A DNA stretch of 64,000 nt from Polynucleobacter sp. UB-Piko-W3 (GTDB taxonomy: Bacteria > Pseudomonadota > Gammaproteobacteria > Burkholderiales > Burkholderiaceae): the NCBI RefSeq assembly GCF_018881635.1, contig NZ_JACVPY010000002.1, positions 339,374 through 403,373 of the forward strand. Reading direction: 5' to 3'. The notes beneath the pieces were generated by a model. That model was not told the origin of the DNA. It saw nothing but the letters and a program-made list of their open reading frames with translations, and did no database searches. Numbering within the stretch: position 1 is the stretch's first letter; every line of letters starts with the position of its first letter. Positions 5,035-54,621 of this stretch are shown in pieces. The translations under genes were made by a program, and so were the position numbers.

Positions 5035-8158
<3,124 letters not shown>

Positions 8159-8182
8159 ATCATGACCTTAGGTCAAAAATAG

Positions 8183-9103
<921 letters not shown>

Positions 9104-9112
9104 ACAGCCAGC

Positions 9113-10096
9113 TTAGTCAGTGGGCATGCCAACGAGCTTGGCAGTAATTTCCCAGAGGTCTTTGCTCAGCTTCTCGCTCTTGGCTTTCATGGAAAGCTCT
9201 TGAGCGAAAGGCTCTCTAATGGCTGAATTGCGATTGCCCCAACTCCAGTGAACACCTGATTGGGTAAAGTGCGGGTCTGCCACGACTTGAGCGACCCGAT
9301 CACCTGCAAGCTCTTGGCTCACATACCCTTTAGTAATGTTCTTCTGAAACCAAGGGAAGATTTTCTGAAAGAGTGGCGGCGTATCTCTAAAGAGCGCTGT
9401 CTCAGCTACGCATCCAGGATACAAAGTATTAAAGATCACCCCAGTACTGGCGTGATATCTTTTTTGGAGCTCGCGATTCATGACCATATTGCATAACTTA
9501 CTGTCCTTGTAGGCTTTGCCTGGTTTAAAGGGTTTACCGTTGATCATCGCAATCGGGGCTTTAAAGCCAGCCATCAAACCTTCTAGCGCACCAATATCTG
9601 CAGGAGCAGGAATGGGCACCTTGCCACCAAACTCTTCTGAGTTTGCAGTCACAGTACCCAAGGTAATGAGGCGCGCATGCTCATGTGCTTTAGCAGTTTG
9701 GATTAGATTTTCTAGCAACATTCTGCTCAGAACATAGTGCCCAAAATAATTGGTAGCAACGCTGATCTCAAATCCTTGAGGCGAACGTGCAGGTTCTTTT
9801 AAGAGCGGCAGGTAAGTAGCTGCATTACAGAGCAGGGCATTGAGCTTTTGACCGCTGTCATTAAAGCGCTTCACAAATGCTCGCACGCTATCTAGATTAC
9901 CGAGGTCTAATTGCCAGATTTCATATTGGCTAGAATCAAATTGATGCGCCTTGGCAGCCAGTTCCATTTTCTGGGGATCGCGAACCGCTAGAATGAGACG
10001 CCACTTTCTAGCGAGTAGGGCTTTTGCGGCATATAAACCAACACCAGAGGAAGATCCAGTAATAATGGCAAGTGGTTGATTGGTAGTGGAGGTCAT
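9113..10096 (-). CDS. por: Light-dependent protochlorophyllide oxidoreductase (LPOR)
   Basis: A 327-aa short-chain dehydrogenase whose sequence fits LPOR rather than a generic SDR. It has the NADPH motif [15 protein letters not shown] (about residues 13-27), the family blocks [17 protein letters not shown] (catalytic Tyr196 and Lys200), [30 protein letters not shown] and GVHWSWGNR, and a C-terminal [14 protein letters not shown] reduces protochlorophyllide with NADPH when illuminated and is insensitive to oxygen. It was long known only from cyanobacteria and plants and later reported in a few aerobic anoxygenic phototrophs, where transfer from cyanobacteria was proposed. Here it faces bchL, 9 bases away. 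Single-gene unit, divergent from the hydrolase at 10171. Confidence 0.92.
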
Positions 10097-26616: not shown

Positions 26617-26841
26617 ATGAAAATTAGTCACGTTATGAGCAAAGAAAAAAATATGATCAGAGAGGATTCAATTACTTTCAATCTTATTTTTATTTTGTGT
26701 TTTTTAGTGTGCTTTGCTATTTCTTTATTTACCCAGATTTTGCCAAATAAGTGGAGTTCTTGGCTTCCAGGAGCTGAAGAAAAATCGCTTATCGATGGTA
26801 CGAAGTCGGCAGTCTATGGCTTTATGTCTTACTTAAATTAG
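26617..26841 (+). CDS. Unidentified single-span membrane protein between pufB and pufA, 74 aa
   Basis: In the usual order pufA follows pufB directly; here a 74-aa orf is interposed. TAGGGGA precedes the ATG at 26617; an internal ATG (MIREDS) is also possible. The product has a polar N-terminus, one hydrophobic span (FNLIFILCFLVCFAISLF), then KWSSWLPGAEEKS and an amphipathic tail ending AVYGFMSYLN. It lacks the LH alpha/beta His-ligand pattern and is not PufX or PufQ by motif. Its place inside pufBA suggests a stoichiometric RC-LH1 accessory chain or an assembly factor; this is inference. Confidence 0.8.
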   Translation: MKISHVMSKEKNMIREDSITFNLIFILCFLVCFAISLFTQILPNKWSSWLPGAEEKSLIDGTKSAVYGFMSYLN

Positions 26842-37242: not shown

Positions 37243-38088
37243 TTAATTTAAGGCGGATTTTTGTGCTATTAGGTCTGCAACTTTTTTAATGGCATCTTCG
37301 GCTGTGAGCTCGCAAACATCTGCGGAACACTCATGAATGAGTTCCGGTTTGAAATCGAATAACGGGCCACCAGCCATTGTCAGGATTCCCTTGTTTTTTG
37401 AGACCTTTTTTACTTCATTGAGCAATGTTTCCATGGTACCCCATTGATCCTCGCAGGAGATAGAAATTGCTAATAAATCATATGCTTGTGAGTGAATGCG
37501 ATCCTTGAGATTGTAGCTGGTCGTTTCAATTTCGACCGTCGTATTCCAGCCGTTCAATTTGAAAAATTCACTCATGATCAGGATGCCTAGGGTGTGTTGT
37601 GATCCTGGTGCATTGATCAGTAGCGCATTTCCCTGGAATTCAGAGAGTTTGCCTTGGCTCATAAAGGCAGGGCTTAGCTGATGGATCAGATTCTGGGCTC
37701 GACCTAGGGCTAAAGTCACTTCTGTAAAGCTATTTTCATCCGTTTCCCAGAGCTGTTGCAAGCGCCTAGTCGATGCTGGAATTAGATTCATATAGAGCGA
37801 TATCAGACTATGCCCCGATTTTTGCATTCGATCGATAAAAGTGAAGCAGTCTGCTATAGGGCCATCGAGCAAAGTCTGGCAAAAATCGACAATTTCAGTC
37901 TGTTTTACCTCGATGTTGTTATTTTGGGCGTCAGCTACGTGATTGGCCGATTCCAGCTTATGCCCCATCAGTAAGCGGGGGATGATTTCTGACTCTATTG
38001 TTTTATTGAGCCATTGCATCATTTCAGCATTATCTAATTCGCCTAAACTGGATTGGAATGTTTTTTTCAGCGAGTCCGACAAAGCCAA
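37243..38088 (-). CDS. aerR: AerR/PpaA, cobalamin-binding antirepressor
   Basis: A 281-aa protein with a helical N-terminal half and a C-terminal B12-binding fold (about residues 155-280). Its PGSQHTLGI (about residue 160) provides the likely cobalamin-ligand His in place of the DxHxxG of B12 enzymes. AerR/PpaA proteins bind hydroxocobalamin and relieve PpsR/CrtJ repression. Being first in the ppsR operon and divergent from bchF fits this job. Confidence 0.9.
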   Translation of the reverse strand: MALSDSLKKTFQSSLGELDNAEMMQWLNKTIESEIIPRLLMGHKLESANHVADAQNNNIEVKQTEIVDFCQTLLDGPIADCFTFIDRMQKSGHSLISLYMNLIPASTRRLQQLWETDENSFTEVTLALGRAQNLIHQLSPAFMSQGKLSEFQGNALLINAPGSQHTLGILIMSEFFKLNGWNTTVEIETTSYNLKDRIHSQAYDLLAISISCEDQWGTMETLLNEVKKVSKNKGILTMAGGPLFDFKPELIHECSADVCELTAEDAIKKVADLIAQKSALN

Positions 38089-38377: not shown

Positions 38378-39046
38378 ATGGAAAAAACATATAGACCACT
38401 TTACACCCCGGAAGAAAGGGTAAGAAGAGATGCGACTAAATGGACCCTGGTTCAGGGAATCTTAGCGCCTATTCAGTTTGTGGTTTTCCTAGTAAGTCTG
38501 TATCTCGTATTGCGTTTTCTGTTCACTGGAGAGGGTGAGAGCGCAGCGAATATTTCGGTAGTGATTAAAACACTCACGCTATACACCATCATGATTACCG
38601 GATGCATTTGGGAAAAAGTTGTTTTCAATTGCTACTTATTTGCGCCAGCATTCTTTTGGGAAGATGTATTTAGCATGCTGGTATTGCTTTTGCATACTTT
38701 GTATTTGGTGGCTCTAGGAACTGGGTATTTGGATCAAACCCAGCTCATGTTGCTCGCTTTAGCAGCTTATGCAACGTATGTTGTTAATGCCGGCCAATTT
38801 ATTTGGAAGTTGCGAATGGCGCGTTTGGATGAGGCTAAAAAAAAGTTGGCAGCTACCTCTCCCAATCCTGCGATGGCAAGCGTTCAAGCACTGGTGCCTC
38901 GATCGCCAACTGCGACCTTGACGGGCTTAACCGTGTCAGAGGCAGAGGAGTTACACCGCAACCTGATTCAAGGGACGCAAATTTTTGGATTTACAGCGGT
39001 CATAGCCCATCTGTTGGCCTATATCTATTCCCCATGGTTGAAATAA
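38378..39046 (+). CDS. bchF: BchF hydratase fused to an LH2-type beta polypeptide, 222 aa
   Basis: Residues 1 to about 160 are BchF, which hydrates the 3-vinyl group of (bacterio)chlorophyllide: YTPEERVRRDATKWTLVQG, four hydrophobic spans, and CIWEKVVFNCYLFAPAFFWEDVFS. A usual BchF ends about there. The frame runs on through a basic stretch (KLRMARLDEAKKK) and a Pro/Ala linker into a complete light-harvesting beta chain (residues 180-222: TLTGLTVSEAEELHRN, ligand His211 in IAHLLAYIYSPWLK). That part is 36/43 identical to the separate PucB at 54478. An internal ATG at 38873 has no ribosome binding site. Four BchF spans return the chain to the cytoplasm, the side from which an LH beta chain starts, so the topology is compatible. 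bchM follows 18 bases later. The fusion itself is seen directly; its use as antenna or enzyme anchor is inference. Confidence 0.93.
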   Translation: MEKTYRPLYTPEERVRRDATKWTLVQGILAPIQFVVFLVSLYLVLRFLFTGEGESAANISVVIKTLTLYTIMITGCIWEKVVFNCYLFAPAFFWEDVFSMLVLLLHTLYLVALGTGYLDQTQLMLLALAAYATYVVNAGQFIWKLRMARLDEAKKKLAATSPNPAMASVQALVPRSPTATLTGLTVSEAEELHRNLIQGTQIFGFTAVIAHLLAYIYSPWLK

Positions 39047-39064: not shown

Positions 39065-39790
39065 ATGCTCGAAAATTCTTACACCCAAAAGCGCAGTCAG
39101 TTGCAAGAGTATTTCGATCGCACTGCAGTAGATGCTTGGGCTAAGCTCACGTCCACTGCGAAGGTAAGCGGTATTCGTGCCAAGGTTCGTGCTGGGCGCG
39201 AAGAGATGCGCCATGTGTTACTCAGTTATTTGCCGAGTGACTTGACTGGCCAGCGCGTTTTGGATGCTGGCTGTGGCACTGGAGTCTTAGCCGCTGATTT
39301 AGCAAAGCGAGGAGCTCATGTCGTTGCGATTGATTTATCCCCAACCTTGGTCGATTTGGCGCGAGAGAGAATTGGTCAGGATGTTGGGTCTGGTTCTATT
39401 GAGTTTCGCTCTGGCGATATGCTAGATCCTGCTCTAGGCGAATTTGATCATGTGGTTTGCATGGATTCAATGATTCATTATCACCATTTGGATATTGCCG
39501 ATGCAATGGCAAAGCTTGCTGCTCGGACCAGAGCCAATATTGCCTTTACCTTTGCCCCCAACAATGCTGCGCTGAGTACCTTATTAACAATTGGTAGCGT
39601 ATTTCCGAGAAGCGATCGATCACCATTTATTCAGCCCATTTCAATGGACTCCCTCACAAGAACCTTTAGCAAACATGCTGGTTTAGTAGATTGGGCGCCA
39701 GTCAGTACGAAAAAAGTACAACGTGCTTTTTATTTTTCACAGGCGATGCGTTTAAGCAAAAAGCCAACCGACCAGAGTAAAGCGCGATAA
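39065..39790 (+). CDS. bchM: Magnesium-protoporphyrin IX methyltransferase
   Basis: SAM-dependent methyltransferase that esterifies Mg-protoporphyrin IX, about 241 aa. The SAM site is VLDAGCGTGVLAADLA, and FDHVVCMDSMIHYH is a BchM-type block. The ATG at 39065 is preferred over the immediately preceding TTG. It is second in the bchF-to-bchP run. Confidence 0.94.
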   Translation: MLENSYTQKRSQLQEYFDRTAVDAWAKLTSTAKVSGIRAKVRAGREEMRHVLLSYLPSDLTGQRVLDAGCGTGVLAADLAKRGAHVVAIDLSPTLVDLARERIGQDVGSGSIEFRSGDMLDPALGEFDHVVCMDSMIHYHHLDIADAMAKLAARTRANIAFTFAPNNAALSTLLTIGSVFPRSDRSPFIQPISMDSLTRTFSKHAGLVDWAPVSTKKVQRAFYFSQAMRLSKKPTDQSKAR

Positions 39791-39792
39791 CC

Positions 39793-41241
39793 ATGAAAAT
39801 GTTTACTCTGACCTGGCGTGGCAAAGAGTTATTTGAAAATTGGAAGAGAGTGAGTCCAAGGTTCTTACCTTTTGCCGATATCGCCACCAAAGAGTTGCCA
39901 TTAAGTCGTCTTTTAAGACTGTCACTATTTCAGGTCTCTGTTGGTATGGCAATGGTGATGCTGATTGGCACACTCAATCGAGTGATGATTATTGAGTTGC
40001 ACGTGAGCGCCGCTTTAGTATCGATTATGGTTGCCTTGCCGCTACTGTTCGCACCTTTTAGAGCATTGGTTGGATTTAAGAGCGATAGTCATAAGTCCTT
40101 TTTGGGATGGCGCAGAGTTCCCTATATCTGGATTGGCTCTTGGTTGCAATTTGGCGGTTTTGCAATCATGCCTTTTGCACTCATTCTTTTATCTGGTGAT
40201 ACCACCTGGCCTGCTTGGTTTGCGCAAGGAGCAACTGGACTTGCCTTCTTATTGGTCGGCGCTGGTATGCAGACTACCCAAACTGCTGGTCTCGCTTTAG
40301 CATCAGATCTGGCACAGCCAGAGGCTAGACCAAGAGTGGTCGCGCTCATGTACATGATGTTATTGGTTGGCATGGCAGTCAGTAGTGCCATCTTTGGTTA
40401 TTTGCTGATTGATATCACCCCCATTCTGTTGATACGAGTAGTGCAGGGTGTTGCAGCAACCACTTTAGTACTCAACCTCATTGCTGCCTGGAAACAAGAA
40501 GCTCGCCAACCGCATTTAACAGCGCACTCCATTCCAACACCAAGCTTTAAAGAAACTTGGACTACTTTTTCGCAGCAGGGCAAAGTGATGCGTTTCCTGG
40601 TGGCCTTAGGCTTAGGTACTGCTGCATTTAGCATGCAAGATATTATTTTGGAGCCTTACGGTGCTGAAGTGCTCGGCCTATCAGTCAGCGCTACGACAGT
40701 GTTAACCAGTCTTACTTCCTTGGGCGCGCTACTGGCATTTGGGGTGGCTGCGCGATATTTAAATCGCTCCATTGATCCATATCGTCTTGCCTCCATCGGT
40801 GCATTGTTTGGCATTCTGGCATTTAGCTGCGTGATTTTTTCTGAACCACTACTGTCGCCCATGCTATTTCGTTGCGGCGCATTTTTGATTGGCTTTGGCG
40901 GCGGATTATTTTCTGTCAGCACTCTCACTGCCGCAATGAGCTTTGAGTCAGGCGGCATGAATGGTTTAGTCCTTGGTGCTTGGGGCGCGGTGCATGCTAC
41001 CGCCTCTGGTCTTGCGATTGCGGCTGGTGGTGTCATACGCGATGTCATTTCTACGTTGGCGACCAGTGGTCTTTTAGGCGAGGGCCTTATTTCCACTGCT
41101 ACAGGCTACAGTTTTGTGTATCACATTGAATTTTATTTACTGTTTGCTACATTGATTGCCATCGGACCTTTAGTGGTGATGAATAAGCATGCCGTAATGA
41201 ATGCTTCAAAGAAGTTTGGTTTAGATGAATTACCAAGTTAA
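39793..41241 (+). CDS. lhaA: LhaA, LH1 assembly protein (PucC/BCH2 family)
   Basis: A 482-aa MFS-like membrane protein with about twelve spans. Family blocks are LPLSRLLRLSLFQVSVGMAMV, GTLNRVMIIEL, GWRRVPYIWIGSW and DIILEPYGAEVLGLSV. Position directly before puhA is the classical place of lhaA, which aids LH1 assembly and may deliver bacteriochlorophyll. It is one of three relatives in the window (also 45986 and 52759). Confidence 0.92.
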   Translation: MKMFTLTWRGKELFENWKRVSPRFLPFADIATKELPLSRLLRLSLFQVSVGMAMVMLIGTLNRVMIIELHVSAALVSIMVALPLLFAPFRALVGFKSDSHKSFLGWRRVPYIWIGSWLQFGGFAIMPFALILLSGDTTWPAWFAQGATGLAFLLVGAGMQTTQTAGLALASDLAQPEARPRVVALMYMMLLVGMAVSSAIFGYLLIDITPILLIRVVQGVAATTLVLNLIAAWKQEARQPHLTAHSIPTPSFKETWTTFSQQGKVMRFLVALGLGTAAFSMQDIILEPYGAEVLGLSVSATTVLTSLTSLGALLAFGVAARYLNRSIDPYRLASIGALFGILAFSCVIFSEPLLSPMLFRCGAFLIGFGGGLFSVSTLTAAMSFESGGMNGLVLGAWGAVHATASGLAIAAGGVIRDVISTLATSGLLGEGLISTATGYSFVYHIEFYLLFATLIAIGPLVVMNKHAVMNASKKFGLDELPS

Positions 41242-45985: not shown

Positions 45986-47338
45986 ATGAACGCTCCTGAA
46001 ACCACCTATCTCACTTGGCCCCAAATCGCCAGACTAGGTTTAGTCCAAGCATCTTTGGGATCGATTGTGGTGTTAACGACCTCACTCTTAAATCGTGTGA
46101 TGGTCATTGAGCTAGCCTTGCCAGCAATCCTGCCCGGCGCATTGGTGGCATTACATTACTTTATTCAGTTAATACGCCCACGAATGGGTTTTGGTTCCGA
46201 TCAAACGCGTAGAGCAAGCCCATGGATTCGTGGGGGAATATTGGTATTGGCTAGTGGCGGCGTATTGGCTGCTACCTCCACAATCCTCTTAAGTAACTCC
46301 GTTGTTTTGGGTATTGCATTAGCAACCGTTGCCTTCTTAATGATCGGCATTGGCGTGAGCTCTAGTGGCACTGCATTGCTGGTGCTTCTGGCAAAACGAG
46401 TAGAGCCAAAAAAGAAGGCAGCAGCAGCTACTTGCGTTTGGTTGATGATGATTTTTGGTTTTGCTTTTACAGCCAGCGTTAGCGGAAAGTTCCTCACACC
46501 ATTTTCATTTGAGCGTCTGCTCATGGTTTCATCTACGGTATCGGTGATTGCAGTGGTAGTGACGTTCTTGGCGATCTGGGGCATGGAGTCGCCTGTTGCT
46601 AAGCCTGGGCAGTTAACGCCTAACGTAGATGCGGCCGAGTCAGATAGTCCAAGTAAAGCCAGTTTTCGTGAAGCCTTTGCTGAGGTCTGGAAAGAAAGTA
46701 GAGTGCGTTCGTTTACCTGGTTTGTCTTTGTGTCGATGTTGGCTTATAGCTCACAAGATTTGATCTTAGAGCCTTTTGCAGCAGTTGCATTTGGTTTCAC
46801 ACCCGCCCAAACAACCACTTTGTCTGGTTTACAAAATGGTGGAGTGCTTGTTGGGATGCTAGCTTTAGCTTTTATCACCAGCAAGGCTAAATCACAGACT
46901 CTGACGACACTGAGCAACTGGACGATTGGTGGCTGTCTGGCCTCGGCCCTTGCGATGCTAGGCCTTGTTTTATCTGGTCCGATTGCTAATGTGGTTTTCT
47001 TTCAGGTGGCCGTTTTCTTATTAGGCATCTTTAATGGCGCATTTTCAATTGCCGCTATCGGCTCGATGATGCAATTTGCCAGCGTCGGTAGTGCACGGCG
47101 TGAGGGTGTTCGTATGGGAATTTGGGGAGCATCGCAAGCAATGGCCTTTGGTTTAGGTGGAATTATTGGAACTGGTTTAAGCGATATTGCGAGGATTGTT
47201 TTGGGTGATCCAGCTTCTGCCTATGCTTTTGTCTTTTTCTTAGAAGGTGTTTTATTTGTTGTGGCTGCGTACTTGTCGTATCAGACTCGTACGCAAAAAC
47301 AAACAAGCAATATGTCGAGTCATTTAGTGGGTGTATAG
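45986..47338 (+). CDS. PucC/BCH2-family membrane protein between bchG and bchP
   Basis: A 450-aa twelve-span protein of the same family as LhaA and PucC (LLNRVMVIEL, DLILEPFAAVAFGF, GIWGASQAMAFGLGG). A gene of this subgroup sits between bchG and bchP in many purple bacteria (orf428 of Rhodobacter) and is thought to help pigment delivery. It is the most divergent of the three relatives here. bchP follows 50 bases after the stop. Confidence 0.88.
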   Translation: MNAPETTYLTWPQIARLGLVQASLGSIVVLTTSLLNRVMVIELALPAILPGALVALHYFIQLIRPRMGFGSDQTRRASPWIRGGILVLASGGVLAATSTILLSNSVVLGIALATVAFLMIGIGVSSSGTALLVLLAKRVEPKKKAAAATCVWLMMIFGFAFTASVSGKFLTPFSFERLLMVSSTVSVIAVVVTFLAIWGMESPVAKPGQLTPNVDAAESDSPSKASFREAFAEVWKESRVRSFTWFVFVSMLAYSSQDLILEPFAAVAFGFTPAQTTTLSGLQNGGVLVGMLALAFITSKAKSQTLTTLSNWTIGGCLASALAMLGLVLSGPIANVVFFQVAVFLLGIFNGAFSIAAIGSMMQFASVGSARREGVRMGIWGASQAMAFGLGGIIGTGLSDIARIVLGDPASAYAFVFFLEGVLFVVAAYLSYQTRTQKQTSNMSSHLVGV

Positions 47339-52758: not shown

Positions 52759-54171
52759 TTAGGCAACCGATTCTACTGGCTTAGCTGGCCATATAAAATT
52801 CGTCATAGCGGCGATCGTGATTAACAGCAAGATGATTTCTAATAGGTAGACGCCACAATAACCCGTTGCTGGAGTATTGAGATCTGCGCCAAAATAATTT
52901 CTGGAGGCCATGCCGCCCAATATATCCCGAAATATTCCTCCGACACCCACCGCAATGCCTGCGGCAGTAGCTTGCACGGCTCCCCATGCGCCCAATGCCA
53001 AGCCGCTTTGATTTTCTGGGGCATATTTCATAGTGGCAGTTAAAGTCCCATGACTAAATAGTCCATTGCCAAATCCAATCAATACGACACCCACAATAAA
53101 AATGAGGGTGCTATTGAAGGGTGCAGCCGCGATCACCAGCATAAATGCAGGAATACCAATTTTGGCGCCATTGCTAGCCATCTTAAAGGGGTCGTAACCA
53201 GCACTTAATACCTTGGAGGCAATGCTAAAGCCAAATAAACAGCCCACGGCTAAGGTAGCAGTTAAGACAGTGGTAGCACTGACGCTCATGTTTAATAGTT
53301 CGCCTCCATAGGGCTCTAGCAAAACATCATTCATGCTAAATGCCATAGTTCCAAAACCCACTGCAATTAAGCGACGAATTGCTTGGCCACCTTCTTTAAA
53401 AGTTTCCCAAGATTCTTTAAAGTTTTGCTCTCTAGCGACCAATGCTCTTGCACGAGCTTCTTCACGACTTTCCTGCTTCCAAAGTGCAATCGCATTCAAT
53501 ACGATCGTAACTACAGCACAACCTTGAATCACTTGGATTAAGCGGCCTGGACTGTACTCCTCTAATAGCTGACCAAAAATCAATGCGCTACCAATCATGC
53601 CGATTAATAACATTACATACATCAGGCCAACAATATTCGCTTGGGATTTAGGTGGAGCAAGATCGCAAGCCAAGGCAAGGCCTACCGTTTGGGTAGTATG
53701 AATACCAGCACCTACAAATAAAAATGCCAGTGCAGCAGCTGCTAATCCAATCCATGCTGGCGCTTCACTAGCGTTGCCTGCACCGGCTAAGACAAGAAGA
53801 GCAAAAGGCATGATGGCAAGTCCACCAAACTGAACCATCGTTCCCATCCAAATATAAGGAACGCGCCGCCAGCCTAAAGCGGATTTATGAGTATCTGAGC
53901 GAAAGCCAATCAAGGCTCTAATGGGGGCAAAAATAATCGGCAAGGAAACCATGATCGATACCAGTGATGCTGGTACTTGTAACTCAACAATCATGACTCG
54001 ATTTAAGGTGCCCACAAGAAGTACTAGGGCCATGCCAACGGATACTTGGAATAGGGATAGTCTGAGTAATCTGCTAAGCGGTAATTCAGCAGAAGCAGCA
54101 TCAGCAAAAGGCAAGAAGCGAGGGCCTAAATTTGCCCAAGTGCTAATTAATTTTTGACTAAAACGATTCAT
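52759..54171 (-). CDS. pucC: PucC, LH2 assembly protein
   Basis: A 470-aa twelve-span protein very similar in its blocks to LhaA at 39793 (LPLSRLLRLSLFQVSVGMALV, LGWRRVPYIWMGTM, DVLLEPYGGELLNMSV). Lying behind pucBA it is best called PucC, required for LH2 formation. Compared with the antenna genes its expression is probably lowered by the hairpin at 54205-54243. Confidence 0.92.
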   Translation of the reverse strand: MNRFSQKLISTWANLGPRFLPFADAASAELPLSRLLRLSLFQVSVGMALVLLVGTLNRVMIVELQVPASLVSIMVSLPIIFAPIRALIGFRSDTHKSALGWRRVPYIWMGTMVQFGGLAIMPFALLVLAGAGNASEAPAWIGLAAAALAFLFVGAGIHTTQTVGLALACDLAPPKSQANIVGLMYVMLLIGMIGSALIFGQLLEEYSPGRLIQVIQGCAVVTIVLNAIALWKQESREEARARALVAREQNFKESWETFKEGGQAIRRLIAVGFGTMAFSMNDVLLEPYGGELLNMSVSATTVLTATLAVGCLFGFSIASKVLSAGYDPFKMASNGAKIGIPAFMLVIAAAPFNSTLIFIVGVVLIGFGNGLFSHGTLTATMKYAPENQSGLALGAWGAVQATAAGIAVGVGGIFRDILGGMASRNYFGADLNTPATGYCGVYLLEIILLLITIAAMTNFIWPAKPVESVA

Positions 54172-54477: not shown

Positions 54478-54621
54478 TTACTTCAACCAAGGTGAATAGA
54501 TGTAAGCAAGTAAGTGGGCGAGTGCTGCAATCATCCCAAAAAATTGCGTACCTTGAATGAGGTTGCGATGTAACTCTTCCGCTTCCTCAACACTCAGACC
54601 TGTAAGAGTGTCATTTGTCAT
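54478..54621 (-). CDS. pucB: LH2 light-harvesting beta polypeptide
   Basis: A 47-aa antenna beta chain starting at the ATG at 54621 with GAGAGGAAA upstream. LTGLSVEEAEELHRNLIQG precedes one span with ligand His36 (LAHLLAYIYSPWLK); His18 is the conserved N-terminal His. The 43-residue body differs at only seven positions from the C-terminal domain of BchF. An exact PpsR box lies 94 bases upstream. Confidence 0.96.
   Translation of the reverse strand: MTNDTLTGLSVEEAEELHRNLIQGTQFFGMIAALAHLLAYIYSPWLK

Follow-up and report, generated by a model that had tools for sequence, protein, structure and literature searches.

The window, by which we mean the whole 64,000-nucleotide stretch of Polynucleobacter sp. 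UB-Piko-W3 DNA analyzed here, contains a gene in which bchF runs without a stop into a light-harvesting (LH) beta chain (Table 1). The sequence-only reading had described it as one uninterrupted 222-codon frame in which a pucB-like copy was joined to bchF, and domain searches and sequence comparison agree with both statements. PF07284 (BCHF) matched residues 9 to 147 over its full length (profile positions 1-139 of 139) with 205.7 bits against a cut-off of 25, TIGR02020 BchF matched residues 8 to 149 with 183.9 bits against a cut-off of 101.35, and PF00556 (LHC) matched residues 188 to 221 with 29.2 bits against a cut-off of 23. The LH beta model NF040862 scored 58.8 on the fused beta, slightly below its cut-off of 61, which the separate PucB passes (65). 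A Pfam scan to E 10 returned BCHF, LHC (PF00556), and a single chance DUF, with no match to the CAB/LHC superfamily. Among solved structures, the C-terminal part is closest to the LH2 (B800-850) beta chain 7zcu_B (phmmer, E 2.9e-15). When we recomputed the identity of residues 180 to 222 to the PucB encoded at 54478, we obtained the same value as before, 36 of 43 residues.

The enzyme part is intact, and the columns that are invariant in the BchF family, including W94, E95, and D96, are present in the window protein in an alignment of 73 rows, made up of this protein and 72 of the 80 best loci of at least 481 relatives. The antenna part has both conserved histidines and the C-terminal PW tail in all 15 fused genes found (see below). 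We take His211 to be the BChl ligand, and Trp220 is presumably, by likeness to LH1, the hydrogen-bond donor to the C3-acetyl group of BChl. The window genome (G000; 2.05 Mb in nine contigs, 99.94% complete) has one BchF copy; of its three matches, the other two are the beta genes pucB and pufB. It has five LHC matches, namely pufB, pufA, pucB, pucA, and the fused beta, and among these there is no alpha gene adjoining the fused beta.

Table 1. Features of the bchF-beta locus and related antenna genes in the window.
Feature	Position	Strand	Basis
bchF-beta fusion gene	38378..39046	+	222 codons plus stop; ORF and profile matches
BchF domain, four-helix membrane enzyme, residues 9-147	38402..38818	+	PF07284 205.7 bits; TIGR02020 183.9 bits; model helices
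Linker, residues 150-179, 30 codons in the window	38825..38914	+	omega 0.35-0.41; pLDDT 45 at residues 171-180
Light-harvesting beta domain, residues 180-222	38915..39043	+	PF00556; phmmer to 7zcu_B; omega 0.07-0.12
His193 codon	38954..38956	+	conserved in 15/15 fused genes
His211 codon	39008..39010	+	conserved in 15/15 fused genes
Trp220 (His+9) codon	39035..39037	+	conserved in 15/15 fused genes
Equivalent of the stretch missing in six relatives	38882..39029	+	alignment; 148 bp (149 in three)
bchM, directly downstream of the fusion	39065..39790	+	PF07109 93 bits
PpaA/AerR-like B12-binding protein, divergent upstream gene	37243..38088	-	PF02310
Stand-alone pucB (48 aa), nearest to the fused beta within the genome	54478..54624	-	sequence comparison
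pucA, sole peripheral-antenna alpha of the genome	54340..54450	-	LHC profile match

An AlphaFold2 model built on the 73-row alignment had a mean pLDDT of 81.9. Residues 11 to 160 were modeled with pLDDT 85-98 in ten-residue blocks and form helices 11-19, 21-50, 54-83, 90-115, and 120-160, so that the four spans earlier attributed to BchF reappear as four helices of 26 to 41 residues. The linker is disordered in the model (pLDDT 58 and 45 for residues 161-180), and the beta helices (186-203 and 206-220) reached only about 50-65, their packing being uncertain in a model whose alignment had the beta in only 6 of 73 rows. A fold search of the PDB with the model gave 170 matches at E up to 10, none of them at 0.001 or better. 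Since the number of spans is even and both flanks of BchF are positively charged, positive-inside reasoning places both ends of the enzyme on the cytoplasmic side, which is also where an LH beta chain starts, and the two parts are thus compatible in topology, as had been proposed.

Among 186 Polynucleobacter genomes, 84 gave some match and 77 have BchF (15 fused, 6 relatives with a shortened tail, and 56 others; these numbers were counted from the match table). The full-length fusion frame is free of stops in all 15 fused genomes, five of which are single-contig assemblies (G040, G074, G077, G080, and G084). This recurrence across 15 genomes, including the five single-contig ones, excludes an assembly error, and an artefact of assembly or annotation is hardly conceivable as the origin of the fusion; the hidden stop or frameshift that might have undone the earlier claim was not found. 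Of the best 80 of at least 481 relatives among named genomes, five are fused, all of them among the 15, and 75 are without the beta domain. A family sample of 398 genomes contained 13 with a match, all Polynucleobacter and five of them fused. In the order sample (399 genomes, 48 with BchF by count) and the phylum sample (398 genomes, 31 with BchF), the only full-length match was the window's own; some long beta frames of these two samples (e.g., G581, G624, G843, G698, G935, G1070, and G1001) lay outside the set inspected below. Ten plasmid records have BchF, none covering 80% of the query and all leaving the beta part uncovered. The fusion is limited to one Polynucleobacter clade among the sampled genomes, and the samples leave room for others.

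Several candidates were rejected on inspection. An apparent 16th fusion at a contig edge in G172 proved to be the separate pucB, and the long open frames around BchF in G057, G003, G164, and G008 or around betas in G551, G799, G523, and G702 contain no BchF-beta fusion. One genome, G177, has two bchF loci (L167 and L168) on two contigs of one bin; either the genome has a second cluster or the bin is mixed.

The gene order around bchF differs between this clade and the rest of the genus. In other Polynucleobacter, bchN lies directly 3' of bchF in 32 of 33 loci, the remaining locus being at a contig end. Within the clade, the gene after bchF is bchM in all 11 loci examined (tblastn, eight genomes), and in the alignment the start of bchM stands behind the bchF stop in every one of the 21 genomes. 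The bchN, bchB, and bchL genes of the window, identified by position and homology, are at 5262-9103 (+). The change of neighbor from bchN to bchM therefore puts the fusion at or near a breakpoint of a cluster rearrangement, which may itself have produced the fusion. In a tree of the beta chains, the 15 fused betas split from 41 separate betas (SH-aLRT 96.3 / UFBoot 99), which argues for one origin with no later gene conversion by pucB; the nucleotide identity of the fused beta to the pucB of the same genome is 0.69-0.78. A search for PpsR-like sites (TGTN12ACA) found 10, fewer than the 13.3 expected from shuffled sequence, and none of the 10 lies upstream of bchF.

The sequence-only reading had proposed looking for the C-terminal extension in related genomes, and the outcome was divided: the extension is present in 15 genomes, but the beta part has been deleted in 6 of the 21 clade genomes (G165, G148, G170, G024, G010, and G149), whose BchF cores are 95.3-99.3% identical to that of the window. 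The missing stretch is 148 bp long in G165, G148, and G010 and 149 bp in G170, G024, and G149. At the scar, ATGGCAAG(C/T) is followed immediately by the terminal bases of the beta gene (CCATGGTTGAAATAA, with variants), which are out of frame, and the shortened proteins end in ...NPAMASPMVEII/VI or ...N-P-A/S-MASPHG. Because the scar keeps the 3' end of the beta frame, which is explicable only if a beta had been there earlier, the fusion is older than the deletion. The loss in 6 of 21 genomes also means that the fused beta is dispensable rather than essential; the separate pucB is unchanged in the six.

The six genomes with the deletion fall in no single group. They are interleaved with fused genomes in the trees of the BchF core, of the locus, and of the species markers (recA + dnaN; rpoB, found in 12 of 24 genomes and in one of these only as a fragment, was set aside), and many nodes of these trees are weak. 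The deleted G148 pairs with the fused G153 in the BchF-core tree (96.7/95) and the locus tree (98.7/81), and the fused G000 is a neighbor of the deleted G010 in the recA + dnaN tree (93.3/94). Exchange of the photosynthesis cluster between species is likely, with G153 (see below) as an example. The two scar lengths could stem from one event followed by a one-base change and interspecies exchange, or from two events. G153 has a 222-type cluster like that of the window, yet its recA falls among the 224-type genomes, close to G056 and G178; cluster transfer is a possible cause, as is a mixed bin (its listed contamination is 5%).

A neutral origin of this pattern, in which the rearrangement left a pucB copy behind bchF that was tolerated and is heading for loss, would fit the deletions in 6 of 21 clade genomes, whose tails are out of frame and unconstrained, and the coincidence of the site with the bchN to bchM change. 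The substitution pattern makes it a very improbable account. The pooled Nei-Gojobori (NG86) dN/dS over the 15 fused genes was 0.040 for codons 1-149, 0.346 for the linker, and 0.072 for the 43 beta codons, compared with 0.001 for the stand-alone pucB genes of these 15 genomes. A GY codon model on a fixed tree of the 15 fused genes gave 0.036 for the core, 0.405 for the linker, and 0.116 for the beta part, with 0.001 for the separate pucB. The beta omega of 0.07-0.12 stands on a synonymous divergence of about 1.2, and in neutral simulations (substitutions only, Jukes-Cantor, synonymous distance 1.1), not one of 500 runs each for the linker and for the beta part kept an open frame throughout the 15 leaves. 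Given the low omega and the absence of such neutral runs, we conclude that the beta part is maintained, less tightly than PucB. The relaxed selection that would have weakened the earlier reading was not found on codons 180-222; purifying selection was. As a separate observation, the pooled dS of pucB in the 15 fused genomes is only 0.24, against 1.06 for the bchF core; together with the identity at 43 positions described below, this could reflect strong constraint even at silent sites or a recent spread.

The residues that are kept and those that vary point to what the beta part may do. His193 and His211, noted as conserved from the window alone, are invariant in 15 of 15 fused genes together with Trp220 and residues 210-217 and 219-222, the only exception in this segment being Ser218, which is Phe in one. 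The separate PucB has the same residue at all 43 positions in each of the 21 clade genomes, whereas the fused beta varies at positions 185-187, 195, 197, 205, 206, 208, and 209, all of them fixed in PucB. PucB Met205 is replaced by Phe in 13 of the 15 fused betas and by Leu and Gly in one each, and PucB Leu209 by Ile in 14 and Met in one. Variation where PucB is invariant suggests a job different from ring building. At the level of sequence, these analyses establish a single origin of the fusion, selection on its beta part, retention of the pigment-binding residues, and a later deletion in six relatives.

If the fused beta were a permanent subunit of the LH2 or LH1 ring, it would tether BchF to the finished antenna. 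The compatible topology, the retained pigment-binding residues, and the presence of one PucA with no second alpha beside the fusion speak for this. However, several of its membrane positions are less constrained than those of a ring beta, a ring member with a four-helix enzyme attached would probably be bulky, and the beta part was lost in six relatives with an unchanged separate pucB. An ordinary ring subunit is disfavored by this weaker constraint and by the six losses, and we regard the permanent-subunit reading as improbable. A low-abundance module for pigment binding, assembly, or feedback is a likelier role for the fused beta than that of a normal ring subunit.

We also considered that the beta chain is set free, either cut off by a protease in the variable linker or made separately from an internal start, and then acts as a minor peripheral-antenna beta, the fusion only coupling its dose to that of BchF. 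The linker evolves fast and is disordered in the model, the beta is complete including its tail, and all 15 fused genomes share an internal start, ATG147, preceded by GGAA, so that a separate shorter beta product stays possible. But ATG147 lies within the conserved BchF motif WKLRM, and since Leu-Arg-Met also occurs in two of four unfused Polynucleobacter BchF proteins checked (G003 and G008), the ATG needs no function as a start; no other internal start is common to the 15 fused genomes. The linker, moreover, keeps its frame and a nearly constant length (30 codons in 4 and 32 in 11 of the 15 fused genomes), and the fused copy varies at positions that are invariant in 21 of 21 separate PucBs. 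Release is somewhat less doubtful than permanent ring membership, though still unlikely.

We favor the reading that the gene encodes a single membrane polypeptide, a working BchF with a tethered LH2-type BChl-binding beta helix that tunes the enzyme or places it at sites of antenna assembly, and we give it a probability of about 55%. BchF would act as the 3-vinyl chlorophyllide/bacteriochlorophyllide hydratase, and the C-terminal beta helix is predicted to have its N-side in the cytoplasm. The helix would still bind BChl a, by itself or together with PucA, and would place or tune BchF at antenna-assembly sites, a role also suggested for the CAB helix of cyanobacterial and plastid ferrochelatase. 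Its exact job may be that of a tether, a product sensor, or a minor ring subunit. The roles put forward in the sequence-only reading, namely tethering in or near the antenna ring, pigment hand-over, and a minor beta subunit, are so far proposals. Some caution is needed in assuming expression, since P. duraquae has the photosynthesis cluster and yet is described as a species in which pigmentation was never observed (PMC5018217).

A more specific proposal starts from the chemistry of the enzyme. The hydration of the C3-vinyl group by BchF is a step toward the C3-acetyl group of BChl a, and in Rhodobacter sphaeroides lacking BchF, 3-vinyl BChl was reported to build reaction centers but no LH1 or LH2 (PMC10101016). 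Since 3-vinyl BChl, which accumulates when BchF is missing, is not assembled into complexes by the LH polypeptides of R. sphaeroides, the beta helix could plausibly read the C3 group on which BchF itself acts first. It might be a built-in product reader that binds BChl a only after the change to C3-acetyl, sensed on the Trp220/His211 side, and that then reports to BchF or parks it at antenna-assembly sites; we offer this tentatively, as a reading of low probability.

The design of an enzyme plus an antenna helix is already known, while the pairing of BchF with an LH beta is new to our knowledge; no title or abstract opening in the open-access literature, to which our search was confined with subscription papers outside its scope, described a BchF-antenna fusion. 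The nearest parallel, as a comparison of how the parts work only, is type II ferrochelatase-CAB, which likewise consists of a tetrapyrrole-pathway enzyme, a linker, and one C-terminal membrane helix of an antenna family. The BchF fusion differs in its enzyme, which is itself a membrane enzyme, in its antenna family (PF00556), and in its organisms, and it is young and confined to one clade. In ferrochelatase II, removal of the C-terminal CAB helix raised kcat, and direct pigment binding was described as not evident (PMC3563542). If our reading is true, the BchF fusion is a convergent case of an enzyme with an antenna helix, built from an antenna family unrelated to that of ferrochelatase-CAB. 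The two stand-alone relatives differ as well: ordinary BchF shares the TIGR02020 region and ends shortly after the fourth helix, whereas PucB, which shares His193, His211, and Trp220 in addition to its overall identity, is a separate protein of the usual 45-50 aa, which the fused beta, with no adjoining alpha gene, is not.

Elsewhere, pigment enzymes are coupled to antenna assembly non-covalently. In R. sphaeroides, LhaA co-isolates with BchG, YidC, and reaction-center subunits, and FLAG-LhaA was reported also to capture LH2-beta and several BChl enzymes (PMC4949548). The association there is via BchG, whereas here, if this is coupling, it would be covalent and via BchF. The BchF step lies six chemical steps or fewer upstream of BchG. 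In Synechocystis, chlorophyll synthase is held with antenna-like single-helix proteins, the high-light-inducible proteins (PMC6175206), although these are separate polypeptides in an oxygenic phototroph. In purple bacteria, the coupling of BChl enzymes to antenna assembly has so far rested on co-purification; here, if it is coupling, it is written in one gene. The fusion is a natural test of a possible physical link between pigment making and antenna building. Since selection kept it in 15 species and six close relatives lost it, fused and deleted pairs such as G000/G010 are directly comparable, the deleted members of the clade being natural deletion mutants of the beta helix.

The photosynthesis cluster of the window has further features. 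An SDR protein (PF00106) at 9113-10096 (-) resembles a light-dependent protochlorophyllide oxidoreductase (LPOR) in its position and sequence; it adjoins bchN, bchB, and bchL, which would give two routes for one step, and LPOR in Polynucleobacter has been mentioned in the literature (PMC7947762). Three proteins of the PUCC family are encoded in the one cluster, at 39793-41241 (+), 45986-47338 (+), and 52759-54171 (-). Between pufB and pufA, a 74-aa ORF with one hydrophobic stretch (26617-26841, +) had no Pfam match over the cut-off; a relative of it occurs in 35 of 101 genus genomes searched. It is a candidate small protein of the core complex.
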